Source of the DNA: Nitrospirota bacterium
Lineage (GTDB): Bacteria; Nitrospirota; Nitrospiria; Nitrospirales; Nitrospiraceae
Length of the DNA: 36,023 nucleotides
Assembly: GCA_023248295.1 (NCBI GenBank)
Contig: JAHFEU010000006.1
Span: 1 to 36,023, forward strand
Direction: 5' to 3'
The position numbers and the translations under genes are program-made. Shown here piece after piece: positions 2,477 to 32,378 of this stretch. Each line of letters opens with the position of its first letter. The stretch's first letter is position 1. The notes below the pieces were generated by a model. The model saw only the letters and a program-made list of their open reading frames with translations, searched no databases and was not told where the DNA came from.

Positions 2477-3370
2477 TCATGTTCCCAGCGGCCGTTTGAT
2501 CTTTTTCAGCAGGCTGTCCAGCGACGCCTTAGGCTGGCCTCCCATCCCTGCATCCGTGCCACTGATCCCATCCGCAAGCTTGGCCGCGATCTCCCTGAAC
2601 ACCGCCGCCTGAGGCGATGCGGGATTGGCCACGACGATCGGCATCCCCGAGTCCCCGCCGGCTCGGATGGCGGGATCGATCGGAATTCGCCCGAGAAACG
2701 GAATGCCCAACTTCTCGGCCGCCCGCTCGCCCCCCCCATGAGAAAAAATTTCAGTCCGTTCGCCGCAGTGCCCGCAGACGAAGAAGCTCATGTTCTCGAT
2801 GATGCCCAGCAACGGGACGTTGACCTTCTGGAACATCATCATGCCCTTCCGCACGTCGTGCAGTGCCACCTCCTGAGGTGTCGTCACCGTCACCGCGCCA
2901 CACATGGGCACCAGTTGAGTGAGGGTGAGCTGGGCATCTCCCGTCCCCGGAGGAAGATCAATGAGCAGATACTCCAGCTCCCCCCAGAGAACATCCCGCA
3001 GGAACTGCTGGATGGCCGTGTGAATCATGGGGCCCCGCCAGACCACGGCCGTCTCTTCCGGCACGAAGAATCCCATCGAGATCAGCTTGACCCCATGGCT
3101 CTCAGCCGGCTTGATCTTGCCGTCCTGCTGCTCAGGCGGTTTCGGGACCCCCATCATCATGGGGATGTTCGGCCCGTACACGTCGGCATCCATCAGACCG
3201 ACTGTCGCGCCCGAGAGACGAAGCGCCACCGCAAGATTGACCGCCACGGTGGTTTTGCCCACTCCTCCCTTGCCGCTGCTGATGGCGATGACATGCTTGA
3301 CGTTCGGGATCAGGTCCTCTTTCCCCTGATTCCGCCCCTGGGTCATCCCCCCGCTGTTCACCTCTCCCAT
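2477..3370 (-). CDS. Mrp/NBP35 family P-loop ATPase (Fe-S carrier)
   Basis: Deviant Walker A SSGKGGVGKTTVAVNLA, MDADVYGPNIPMMMG, and CxxC in FFVCGHCGERTEIF. Confidence 0.93.
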   Translation of the reverse strand: MGEVNSGGMTQGRNQGKEDLIPNVKHVIAISSGKGGVGKTTVAVNLAVALRLSGATVGLMDADVYGPNIPMMMGVPKPPEQQDGKIKPAESHGVKLISMGFFVPEETAVVWRGPMIHTAIQQFLRDVLWGELEYLLIDLPPGTGDAQLTLTQLVPMCGAVTVTTPQEVALHDVRKGMMMFQKVNVPLLGIIENMSFFVCGHCGERTEIFSHGGGERAAEKLGIPFLGRIPIDPAIRAGGDSGMPIVVANPASPQAAVFREIAAKLADGISGTDAGMGGQPKASLDSLLKKIKRPLGT

Positions 3371-11021: not shown

Positions 11022-11237
11022 TAGCCCGCGTTATTCATGACGGTTCGTGGCGAAATCGCGCAGTCGCGTCGCGAGACGGGCGCGTGGAGCCGCGAAGGAG
11101 GGAGGCATACTCCCGGCAGTACGTTGACCGACTGAGCGGCGAGCCCGCCCGCCTGCATGCCGCGGCAGCCGCATGCAGGCTTGTCGCAGCAGCGAATCCG
11201 CGATTACAGCAGAAGCGTTCATGAATAATGCGGGCTA
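11022..11237. repeat. Element A: terminal-inverted-repeat intergenic element, 216 bp
   Basis: Left end TAGCCCGCGTTATTCATGA (11022-11040), right end TCATGAATAATGCGGGCTA (11219-11237), inverted with one mismatch. Internal perfect 10-bp stem GCCTGCATGC/GCATGCAGGC (11151-11160/11171-11180). Its reverse complement aligns by eye with element B. Confidence 0.85.
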
Positions 11238-11256
11238 GGGGCGGCATCCGCCGGTC

Positions 11257-24183: not shown

Positions 24184-25038
24184 ATGAAGACCATCGGCAT
24201 CCTCACCAAGCCCAAGTTTCCCGACGTCAAGCACATCCTCACAGACCTCGTCGCCTGGCTTCGAGAGCGCAAGAAAGAGGTGGTGCTTGACGCGAAGACC
24301 GCCGCCCTCATCGGCGAATCCGCGTCGCACCAGAAAACTCAAATCGCGACACGGTCTGACATGGTCCTGGTGCTGGGCGGCGACGGAACGATGCTGAGCG
24401 CCGCGCGGCTCCTGGAGGAACGCGCCGTGCCCATCCTGGGCGTGAACATGGGAGGGCTGGGATTTCTCACGGAGATCACCCTCGATCAACTCTACCCGGC
24501 CCTCGAGAAGGTCTTTGCCCAGGAGTTCATGGTCGAGGAACGACTGATGCTGCGTGCCGACATGCATCGCCACGGTGAGCAGGTGGCGAAGGCGACGGTC
24601 CTGAACGACGTGGTCGTGAGCAAGGGTACCCTCGCGCGAATGATCGAGATTCAGATTCTGATCGACGGACAGTTCGTGACGCGTCTACGAGGGGACGGAC
24701 TGATCGTCTCGACCCCGACCGGCTCCACCGCCTACTCGCTCTCCGCCGGCGGGCCGATCATCCACCCGACGGTCCAAGCGCTGATCCTCACCCCGATCTG
24801 TCCGCACACGCTCACCCACCGCCCGCTTCTGGTTCCCCGCGACGTTGCCCTGGAGGTCACGCTGACCAGCCAGGTCGAGGGTGCGATGGCGACGTTCGAC
24901 GGGCAGGTGGGCGTCGCCCTGGTGCAGGGAGACACGGTCGCGATCGCCGTCTCCGAACACCGAACACAGCTCATCCGCTTGCCGGATCGGACGTACTATG
25001 ATGTTTTGAGAAGAAAGCTGAAGTGGGGGGACAGCTAG
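24184..25038 (+). CDS. nadK: NAD kinase
   Basis: MKTIGILTKPKFPDVKH, VLVLGGDGTMLSAARL, GDGLIVSTPTGSTAYSLSAGGPI. The TAG stop is the first 3 bp of element B. Confidence 0.94.
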   Translation: MKTIGILTKPKFPDVKHILTDLVAWLRERKKEVVLDAKTAALIGESASHQKTQIATRSDMVLVLGGDGTMLSAARLLEERAVPILGVNMGGLGFLTEITLDQLYPALEKVFAQEFMVEERLMLRADMHRHGEQVAKATVLNDVVVSKGTLARMIEIQILIDGQFVTRLRGDGLIVSTPTGSTAYSLSAGGPIIHPTVQALILTPICPHTLTHRPLLVPRDVALEVTLTSQVEGAMATFDGQVGVALVQGDTVAIAVSEHRTQLIRLPDRTYYDVLRRKLKWGDS

Positions 25039-25308
25039 CCCGCGTTATTCATGAACGCTTCTGCTGCAATCGCGGATTCGCCGCTTCGACGAGCCTGCAT
25101 GCGGCTTCCGAGGCATGCAGGCGGGCGGGCTCGCCGCTCAGTCCCTCGACGTACTGTTTCAAGTACGCCTCGGTCCCTCGCGGCTCCTCCCTGACCCATT
25201 GCAACGAGAAGAGCAATGGGTCCCCCTCGCGCGCGACTGCCGGGTACCCCTTGCTCTGAGGGAATGCAAGGGGTGGACGCGACGAACCGCCATGAATAAC
25301 GCGGGCTA
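25036..25308. repeat. Element B: terminal-inverted-repeat intergenic element, 273 bp
   Basis: Ends TAGCCCGCGTTATTCATG...CATGAATAACGCGGGCTA, perfectly inverted. Internal perfect stems GCCTGCATGC/GCATGCAGGC (25093-25102/25113-25122), ACCCATTGC/GCAATGGGT (25194-25202/25213-25221), ACCCCTTGC/GCAAGGGGT (25246-25254/25266-25274). Related to the reverse complement of element A. Confidence 0.9.
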
Positions 25309-26730
25309 ACGTGCGGCGGGGGCTCGTTCGCGCTCGCGCCGTTCCTGGATGAGCGTCAGCATCAGTTCGTTGGACGGAAATTTGAATTCGCCGATACACT
25401 CACGCGTCATGCCCTGTTCCTTCTCGATGGCCTCCAGGAGTCTGAGGCTTTCCACGTCGATCGCGTGCACCCCTCGCGCCTGCAGCACCGTCCGAAGTTG
25501 ACGAAGCACCCGCTCGTTCACGCGAGGCTCCCGCGGGGGCCGTGATTCCAGATATCGCAGGAGGACCTCGGTGCACCATTCGCCGTCCCGCTTTGCGATC
25601 CCGACCAGGCCCTCGCTGGCCTTTCGCGCCCAGCCCGTCAGAAACACCCCCTCGATCGCCGTTCCGGTTGCTTCATCGTAGGCCTGGAAGAGCGCATCGT
25701 CGGGGTCGTTGCCGGTCGATGTCGGGTTCGTGACGAAGACCCCGCTCTTGTACGGCAGCCCGACCGTCTCGTCCACCCTGTCTCCCACGGCGAACACCAC
25801 GCTGTCGCAGGGGAAGTCGTAGTATTCCTTCAGCCCGACCGCCGCGAAATCCTGCCCCTTGGGCTCCAGCCTGGTTTCCTCGATCTGCAACCCCCGGACA
25901 CGATTCTCTGCGTCGGTCAACACCCGACGGGGAGACGCCAGGAAACGGAGCCCCATCTTCGTCGGGCTGGTCAGCGGCTCGCATTTGGTGAATTCGTCGG
26001 TCATCCCCTTGAGGATTTCGTCCGGGTTCTGCCCCACCGCTTCCAACCGAGGGCGAAGGCGGGCGAACTCCTCCGCCAGCGTCGCCCGATCAATGTTCGA
26101 ACAAATGGCGCGAATCTCCTTGGGGTTATACTTGCGCTCCGCAGGGCCGCGCCTCGCGATCGCGGTGACCTGCTCCACCTGCTTGTAACGAATCAGCCAG
26201 TGGGCGATGTCGACCATCACATCGCCGACCCCGATGATGGCGATCCGCCGGCCCATCTCAAAGGGCCGCTCGCTGAAGCCGGGAAGCCGATTGAAATGGT
26301 AGACCACGTCCTTGGCATGATAGACGCCGGTCGCCGAGTCGCCCTCGACGCCGATGGTCTTCGTCCCCTGGGCGCCCGTGGCAAACACCAGCGCGCTGGC
26401 CTCCAGACTGCGGAGGTCATCGACGGTGAGGTCTTTGGTCTTGCCGACCGACACGTTCCCGAAATAATGCACGTTCGGCCGTTCGTTGATCTCCCAGTAC
26501 GACTTCCGCAGTCCTCCCCGCAGCTTGAGCTTGCTCGGGAAAATGCCGTATTCCGCGAGGCCGCCAAACTTGATGTCCCGGTTCAGAATCACCACCTCAT
26601 GGCCGGCCTTGGAAAGCAGGTTCGCGGCCGCCATGCCGGCCGGCCCGGCGCCTACAATAATAATGAGGTGTGCCTGGCCTATTCCCGCGGTTGCCATGAT
26701 GTGATTCCGGCCCTCTTCTCCGTCGCTCAA
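25306..26730 (-). CDS. FAD-dependent pyridine-nucleotide oxidoreductase, ferredoxin-NADP reductase (FprA)/adrenodoxin-reductase-like
   Basis: IIVGAGPAGMAAANLLSKAGHEVVILNR, FATGAQGTK, IAIIGVGDVMVDIAHWL, FLTGWARKASEGLVGIAKRDG. The TAG stop is the last 3 bp of element B. Confidence 0.87.
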   Translation of the reverse strand: MSDGEEGRNHIMATAGIGQAHLIIIVGAGPAGMAAANLLSKAGHEVVILNRDIKFGGLAEYGIFPSKLKLRGGLRKSYWEINERPNVHYFGNVSVGKTKDLTVDDLRSLEASALVFATGAQGTKTIGVEGDSATGVYHAKDVVYHFNRLPGFSERPFEMGRRIAIIGVGDVMVDIAHWLIRYKQVEQVTAIARRGPAERKYNPKEIRAICSNIDRATLAEEFARLRPRLEAVGQNPDEILKGMTDEFTKCEPLTSPTKMGLRFLASPRRVLTDAENRVRGLQIEETRLEPKGQDFAAVGLKEYYDFPCDSVVFAVGDRVDETVGLPYKSGVFVTNPTSTGNDPDDALFQAYDEATGTAIEGVFLTGWARKASEGLVGIAKRDGEWCTEVLLRYLESRPPREPRVNERVLRQLRTVLQARGVHAIDVESLRLLEAIEKEQGMTRECIGEFKFPSNELMLTLIQERRERERAPAAR

Positions 26731-31330: not shown

Positions 31331-31720
31331 ATGAGGCGGCCCAGATGGCTGGAAGTCGGGACAGGACTCTCGCTCCTGCTCTCCGCCGTCTTGGCGATCG
31401 CGCAGCAGGATCCTCTGGTCATCTTTGCCGTCGTCACCAAGGTCTCGAAAGACAGGAAGCAGGTCACGGCGCAGGTGTCCGCCGGTGGAGCTGCGACCGA
31501 GGCCACGTTGATCGCAACCGATCCGATTCTCGATAACCTGATCTGGAAGAAGCTGGAGATCTGCCATTCACTCAAAGCCGAAGCCTGGATGACTCCAGAG
31601 GGCTACCGGCTTGTCTCGGTCAAAATACTCGATGCGGGGATGCTTCCGATGACCCTTCAAGGAGTTGCCGGGGAGTGCCTCTTGAAGAAGGCGTTGGAAT
31701 TCGCCCCGTTGGTGGACTAG
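31331..31720 (+). CDS. Exported hypothetical protein
   Basis: Signal-like N-terminus MRRPRWLEVGTGLSLLLSAVLAIAQQ then a plausible domain. The TAG stop (31718-31720) is the first 3 bp of element C. Confidence 0.6.
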   Translation: MRRPRWLEVGTGLSLLLSAVLAIAQQDPLVIFAVVTKVSKDRKQVTAQVSAGGAATEATLIATDPILDNLIWKKLEICHSLKAEAWMTPEGYRLVSVKILDAGMLPMTLQGVAGECLLKKALEFAPLVD

Positions 31721-32000
31721 CCCGCATTCTTCACGAACAAAGCACCGTCGTGAAGAATGCGCCTGCACGTGCGGGCTCCGCGACTCGCCTGCCTGCGACG
31801 AGCTCAGCCGAGGCGAGCTCGCCGAAGTCCGCACCTGCAGGTTTCGACAGGCCGCCTCCGCGGCCTGCTCAAGGCTAGCCCTGAGCGACGCCCCGCAAAT
31901 GCGGGGCGGAGTCGAAGCCCGGAGGGCCCATCGAGACACCTCAGGGCCCTGAGTTTATCGAAGGGCGGATTGTTCACCTCTTCGTGAATAAGCCGGGCTA
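31718..32000. repeat. Element C: divergent/composite member of the same terminal-repeat family, 283 bp
   Basis: Ends TAGCCCGCATTCTTCACGAA...TTCGTGAATAAGCCGGGCTA, flanked on both sides by CTAG. Perfect 14-bp stem CGCATTCTTCACGA/TCGTGAAGAATGCG (31723-31736/31748-31761), CGCCCCGC-AAAT-GCGGGGCG (31889-31908), and a core rich in TTCGACA/CTCAGG-type repeat motifs. Confidence 0.8.
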
Positions 32001-32378
32001 GCCGGTGGAAGACGGGGCGCAAGCCGGGCATTCCGTCCGCTCGTGCTCTGCGTGGAACTCTTCGGAGGTCAGCGGAAAGTGCTGGTCGCATCTCTGACAT
32101 TGCCGGATTTCGAAATAGGCGACCCCCTTCTCATCGATTTCGGTCGGAAGCAGCAATTCCGACGGGTCGTAGCCCAGCAACACCCCGTCAGCGAACTTCA
32201 CTACGGCAAGACGGACGTTGAAGAGTTCAAAGGCCGCCTCCTGCCCTTTCCGTTCCACGACATGACCGACCACGAAGACTGGCTGTCCCCGTCGTTTCGT
32301 CCGCAAATCTTTCAGCGTCCGCTGGGTCGCGGTGGCGACGGTGAAGCCGCCGCTCGAACTGGTTCCCGCCGTCGGCAT
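31998..32378 (-). CDS. Hypothetical protein with C-terminal zinc-ribbon-like CxxC pair
   Basis: CQRCDQHFPLTSEEFHAEHERTECPAC; the TAG stop (32000-31998) is the last 3 bp of element C. Confidence 0.6.
   Translation of the reverse strand: MPTAGTSSSGGFTVATATQRTLKDLRTKRRGQPVFVVGHVVERKGQEAAFELFNVRLAVVKFADGVLLGYDPSELLLPTEIDEKGVAYFEIRQCQRCDQHFPLTSEEFHAEHERTECPACAPSSTG

Follow-up and report, generated by a model that had tools for sequence, protein, structure and literature searches.

Element B is a short repeat between two convergent genes, nadK (24184–25038, plus strand; Pfam NAD_kinase) and a gene for an FNR-like flavoprotein (25306–26730, minus strand; an FAD/NAD(P) pyridine-nucleotide oxidoreductase with Pfam Pyr_redox_2). 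Its two ends coincide with the stop codons of both neighbours, which raises the question of whether the element supplied these stops or came to lie in them. The locus is part of a window of 36,023 nucleotides, the whole stretch of DNA that was analysed, which is contig C91 of an incomplete Nitrospirales MAG (2.5 Mb in 220 contigs). A perfect 18-bp inverted repeat, TAGCCCGCGTTATTCATG, occupies 25036–25053 and 25291–25308. The 3′ end of nadK reads GAC AGC TAG with the TAG at 25036–25038, and the TAG stop of the flavoprotein, which is CTA on the plus strand, is at 25306–25308. The overlap of the repeat ends with these triplets, first proposed in a sequence-only reading of the window, was thus reproduced to the base.

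The TAG and CTA triplets are best read as parts of a target duplication, because the flanks at the two ends correlate among copies and an empty site holds the tetranucleotide only once. The terminal inverted repeat (TIR) proper, CCCG...CGGG, lies within the inner body of element B (25039–25305), which is 267 bp long and contains no ORF. Inverted-repeat comparison places the left TIR, CCCGCGTTATTCATG, at 25039–25053 on the plus strand and the right TIR at 25291–25305 on the minus strand; the TIR of the whole family is CCCGSATTATTCATGA, with a length of 16–18 bp. The body is flanked by two 4-bp target copies, CTAG at 25035–25038, which contains the nadK stop, and CTAA at 25306–25309, which contains the flavoprotein stop.

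The orthologous site in a sister genome of the same genus (G005) is 94% identical across the joined flanks of element B and carries no element. Its sequence, GACAGCTAACGTGC, aligns end to end as GGGGACAG-CTAA-CGTGCGG, and the stops of nadK and the flavoprotein overlap in the single CTAA (GACAG-CTAA-CGTGC). Two other loci (L211 and L212) align without gaps through the element B junction and have CTAG there, and about ten further family members have YTAR at the junction with the element absent. Because both stops are present in the empty site of the sister genome, the suggestion that the element termini supply them is wrong in direction; the duplication merely copied what was already there. Two other parts of the same reading held, namely that the C-terminus of NadK is natural and that the element sits at a stop codon without truncating the gene. 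The NAD_kinase_C domain is complete (1–126/126), the empty-site relatives end at the same codon, and neither gene of the pair continues past the insertion point.

A second copy in the window (31717–32001 with its target copies, 31721–31997 without them) has CTAG on both sides, and two convergent ORFs end exactly at its flanks. Its site is also empty in G005 (GTGGATTAGCCTGTGG), where TTAG occurs once (GTGGAT-TAG), the left gene ends VD*, the right gene on the other strand ends STG*, and neither runs on past the insertion point. Thus, for two of the three window copies, the stops of both neighbours pre-existed in one shared YTAR. The third copy, element A (11022–11238, with its 210-bp body at 11025–11234), belongs to the same subfamily as element B, is flanked by GTAG and CTAG, and is not at a stop codon. 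At another locus (L064) the sister genome retains a copy at the orthologous place, reduced to its TIRs. Local indels made the remaining comparisons with empty sites in G005 imprecise.

The source genome contains approximately 45 copies of this protein-less, MITE-like element. The end motif used for the scan, CCCG(C/G)(A/G)TTATTCATGA, gave 85 matches (42 + 43), and because the reversed control pattern gave 1 (0 and 1), the TIR repeat is not due to chance. Forty complete copies could be paired in 43 source-genome stretches (~341 kb). They are 173–325 bp long, mostly 210, 238, 266 or 294 bp, and lack a transposase ORF; 33 copies belong to one subfamily and four to another, which includes the window copy at 31721–31997. 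A length below 500–600 bp without coding capacity, TIRs, a target duplication and dispersed mobile copies are all characters of a MITE, a further one being ends in common with an autonomous element that mobilizes it. Contigs C22, C32, C54, C71, C76, C88 and C158 of the source assembly end within or beside element copies, and the repeat probably fragments the assembly of the MAG.

In the source genome the copies are flanked by YTAR, mostly CTAG, a near-palindrome that contains the stop codon TAR whichever strand is read. In permutation tests, the variable positions of the left tetranucleotide correlate with those of the right one (P = 0.0003 and 0.0008), the pattern that a target duplication would leave. 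In genomes independent of this one, the two flanks match exactly in 39 of 63 copies. The duplication may comprise anything from 2 bp (the TA core) up to all 4 bp, because the two flanks of element B differ and G/C is commoner beside the TIR than a plain 4-bp duplication would give. The TIR-adjacent base is replaced by G/C in one direction only (26 cases, with 0 in reverse; 119/119 when the outer base is C/G), which rules out a pure 4-bp duplication with random decay. Wherever an A/T stands beside the TIR, the outermost base of the opposite flank is also A/T (13/13), and this association rules out a pure TA duplication. The one-way replacement would be explained if the flanking base were corrected to match the base at the end of the element itself, for example by donor-base carry-over or gene conversion.

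The distribution of copies relative to genes was compared with that of control sites cut in silico from the ~341 kb of stretches around the copies, with genes called identically in both sets by a simple caller based on codon usage in place of a standard annotation. A gene stop lies in the target copy of 14 of 35 non-disruptive copies, compared with 18/99 non-disruptive CTAG sites (P = 0.02), 42/262 CTAG, TTAG and CTAA sites (P = 0.002) and 46/349 YTAR sites (P = 2 × 10−4). Both neighbouring genes stop in the target at 2/35 copies and at 0/349 YTAR sites (P = 0.008). Gene-breaking copies are rarer than gene-breaking CTAG sites (1/36 versus 36/135, P = 0.001). In other genomes, 28/71 copies have an ORF of at least 120 codons that terminates at the flank, compared with 272/1951 YTAR sites (P = 2 × 10−7). 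Convergent junctions are not enriched (6/37 elements versus 36/269 control sites, P = 0.61). The earlier suggestion of a mobile element that targets CTAG/TAG at gene ends was therefore borne out for the CTAG-type target and for the enrichment at stop codons, in the source genome and beyond. A preference for convergent junctions was not supported.

Taken together, we consider it about 85% probable that element B is a non-autonomous MITE-like element that duplicated a YTAR within pre-existing shared stops and left both genes intact. The family inserts at YTAR, best at CTAG, and duplicates the tetranucleotide. At this locus nadK and the flavoprotein already had overlapping stops, as the empty site shows, and the target was that 4-bp overlap; its duplication gave each gene its own intact stop while separating the two, which the insertion spaced 271 bp apart. 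Both genes are intact because the duplicated YTAR reads TAR on both strands. The choice of YTAR opens many stop codons to landing, where an insertion is costless, unlike one inside a gene, and stop sites are over-represented among the surviving copies. We infer that purifying selection removes the gene-breaking copies, so that survivors accumulate in proportion at stops. The preference for YTAR and the loss of gene-breaking insertions explain most of the pattern. The excess of stop sites over random non-disruptive YTAR sites is about threefold, and tolerance alone may be insufficient to explain it; either selection against 5′ insertions or active targeting could account for this residual.

The body of element B is strongly folded. 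As single-stranded DNA it has a predicted energy of −78.2 kcal/mol, compared with −56.0 kcal/mol for shuffled sequences (z = −5.65). The at least three stems of 9–10 bp that the sequence-only reading had described were located at 25093–25122, 25193–25222 and 25246–25274. The first is a 10-bp stem, GCCTGCATGC/GCATGCAGGC, and it shows compensatory changes among copies, as does a small arm, CGTACT...AGTACG, at 25150–25167. The second is a nested 28-bp REP-like hairpin module, ACCCATTGC...GCAATGGGT, which is optional in the alignment, and the third is another nested hairpin module, ACCCCTTGC...GCAAGGGGT, recognized by alignment and stem search. A 61-pair structure fits 31 copies, drawn from both the source genome and Nitrospira, with 96.8% pairing. 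Double changes occur at 24 of the 61 pairs and in 118 cells, compared with 32.8 cells in shuffles (0/500 as high) and 5–27 cells in slid controls. Because the base-pair covariation spans the full length, the entire body, beyond its ends, is maintained as a foldable strand, and this compensatory maintenance suggests that the element passes through a single-stranded stage, as DNA or RNA. The modules of about 28–30 bp, ACCC(A/G)TTGC...GCAA(C/T)GGGT, are independently present or absent at four fixed positions. The source genome has 103 exact copies of the module motif, the sister genome has 50 and one Nitrospira genome has 0; some of the copies are outside elements. The module looks like a second, REP-like repeat nested inside the larger element. 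A search of the element against Rfam gave no family above the gathering cut-off.

Several other explanations of the locus were weighed against this evidence. If the element carried TAG/CTA in its own ends, it would truncate genes and supply them with new stops. The near-invariant G/C beside the TIR, which appears as if partly element-borne, and the TAG adjoining the TIR in most copies are in keeping with this. However, in the sister genome the genes use the same stop codon although no element is present, which refutes it for element B and the copy at 31721; moreover, genes that terminate at the flanks retain their C-terminal domains in full (HU 1–90/90 and Mg_chelatase_C 2–94/94, in addition to that of NadK), and the two end flanks correlate. 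Such an origin of the stops is highly improbable. Active targeting of gene 3′ ends beyond the choice of YTAR, such as coupling to translation termination, transcription or lagging-strand hairpins, would account for the threefold excess and for the sites at which both genes stop, but the numbers are small, selective removal of insertions in 5′ regions may yield an equal excess, and many copies are away from stops. We regard it as unlikely, though the least so of these alternatives.

A third explanation, somewhat less likely than active targeting, is that the element is retained at gene ends as a two-way transcription terminator or a stabilizing 3′-UTR element, including a Rho-dependent effect. 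Its strong hairpins with conserved pairing and the position of 40% of the copies at 3′ ends are consistent with this function. However, neither strand of the element has the intrinsic terminator signature of a stem followed by a T-run, and the proposal of a two-way intrinsic terminator is not upheld; a Rho-dependent or 3′-UTR effect would still be compatible with the sequence. In addition, convergent junctions show no enrichment, five of 37 copies lie between divergent genes, and a gene start is on one side of most copies. Movement as single-stranded DNA by a Y1 (HUH) transposase, as in a REP/RAYT-type element, is improbable to a similar degree. It would agree with the covariation over the whole body, with the hairpin modules and the very short 26-bp palindromic copies, and with the one Y1 transposase gene in the source genome. 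Against it, no Y1 gene in the source genome and the relatives examined is flanked by element ends, Y1_Tnp was not detected in the element-bearing genomes G001 and G002, and the correlated flanks fit a target duplication, which HUH insertion does not make.

The search for a mobilizing enzyme was extended to other transposase families. PF13701, PF01609 and PF13546 are absent from the source genome, an incomplete MAG. PF01609 was not found in G000, G002 and G004, and its one gene in G003 lacks the element TIR; PF13546 is present in 3/41 relatives, in none with the element TIR. No ORF-bearing element bounded by this TIR occurs among all fetched loci, viral contigs and plasmids. The candidates for an autonomous element (L134, L180, L190, L191 and G065:C6:373452-375652) were rejected as separate copies around host genes or as having weak ends. 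Because the MAG is incomplete and its contigs often end inside copies, the assembly may have lost a multi-copy partner.

In its short length, lack of an ORF, TIRs, target duplication, tens of copies and mostly intergenic position, the family resembles known bacterial MITEs (Correia, RUP, Chunjie and others). Chunjie of Geobacter, compared here by description, is 178–235 bp long and has 38 copies (PMC10969869). The present element differs from these MITEs in its GC-rich body, its covarying multi-arm fold, its REP-like modules at fixed places and the occurrence of its ends in many phyla with no related autonomous element found. It shares the YTAR target with IS5-type elements, and IS701 also has a YTAR target. 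For IS5, YTAR has been reported as the target duplication (PMC10359306); in contrast to IS5-type systems, DDE_Tnp_1 was not found in the source genome, and no gene is bounded by the element TIR in the loci examined. REP/REPIN sequences (RAYT, Y1) are similar in their palindromes, conserved hairpins, intergenic position and high copy number, and resemble the nested 28-bp modules, whereas the element has a duplicated 4-bp target and 16-bp TIRs, and Y1 genes are not flanked by its ends. The CIR elements of Caulobacter are long palindromic intergenic repeats with an RNA-like fold (PMC2229807) and are alike by description, but they occur in a different host, and our element has no Rfam match reaching the cut-off. 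In the literature searched, the letters of the TIR appear in no paper, and no study was found of MITEs in Nitrospira or of MITEs located in stop codons. The element is thus known in kind as a MITE and is new as a family to that literature; for a MITE, the covariation of its body, the nested modules and the lack of a partner are unusual.

Relatives of the element body are present in Nitrospira, with about 6 copies in N. moscoviensis, and exact YTAGCCCGSATTATTCATGA occurs in at least 117 contigs in a scan across bacterial contigs; the groups among the matches listed are Nitrospirota, Planctomycetota, Acidobacteriota, Myxococcota, Gammaproteobacteria, Deltaproteobacteria and others. For the family of the source genome, 27/41 genomes carry the element, with 0 to more than 40 exact ends per genome. 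We tentatively suggest, as a broader picture of rather low probability, a multi-phylum family whose body is kept as a structured strand with hairpin modules at its arm tips, which is moved by a not-yet-recognized enzyme, and for which YTAR turns overlapping convergent stops into damage-free landing pads. The rule for harmless genome loading would be to pick and duplicate a tetranucleotide that reads as a stop in either orientation; where convergent genes overlap in their stop codons, they would be safe landing pads that the insertion separates. An apparent stop-codon function can arise as a side effect of how targets are chosen. Given its covarying fold and missing transposase, the family is a good place to seek an unrecognized or single-strand-based route of transposition among uncultured bacteria such as Nitrospira.

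Several individual copies have peculiar structures or surroundings. Among viral contigs, one 10.6-kb IMG/VR contig has a single copy (L300:801-1044), the interior of which is a nearly perfect long hairpin; the plasmids searched gave weak partial matches only. In L063:852-2417, an ORF ending in a target copy combines phosphoglycerate kinase with the C-terminal half of triosephosphate isomerase, which is either a fusion by deletion or an assembly error. Pairs of copies or partial copies surround host genes over 0.7–2.2 kb in a composite-transposon-like arrangement (L191:858-1554, L180:4761-6594 and L319:1957-4149). Minimal copies of 26–68 bp, barely more than two TIRs, are found at L134 (~2047–2072), L078 (~3087–3112) and G003:C8:357691-357758, and those at L134 and in G003 are flanked by YTAR-type tetranucleotides.
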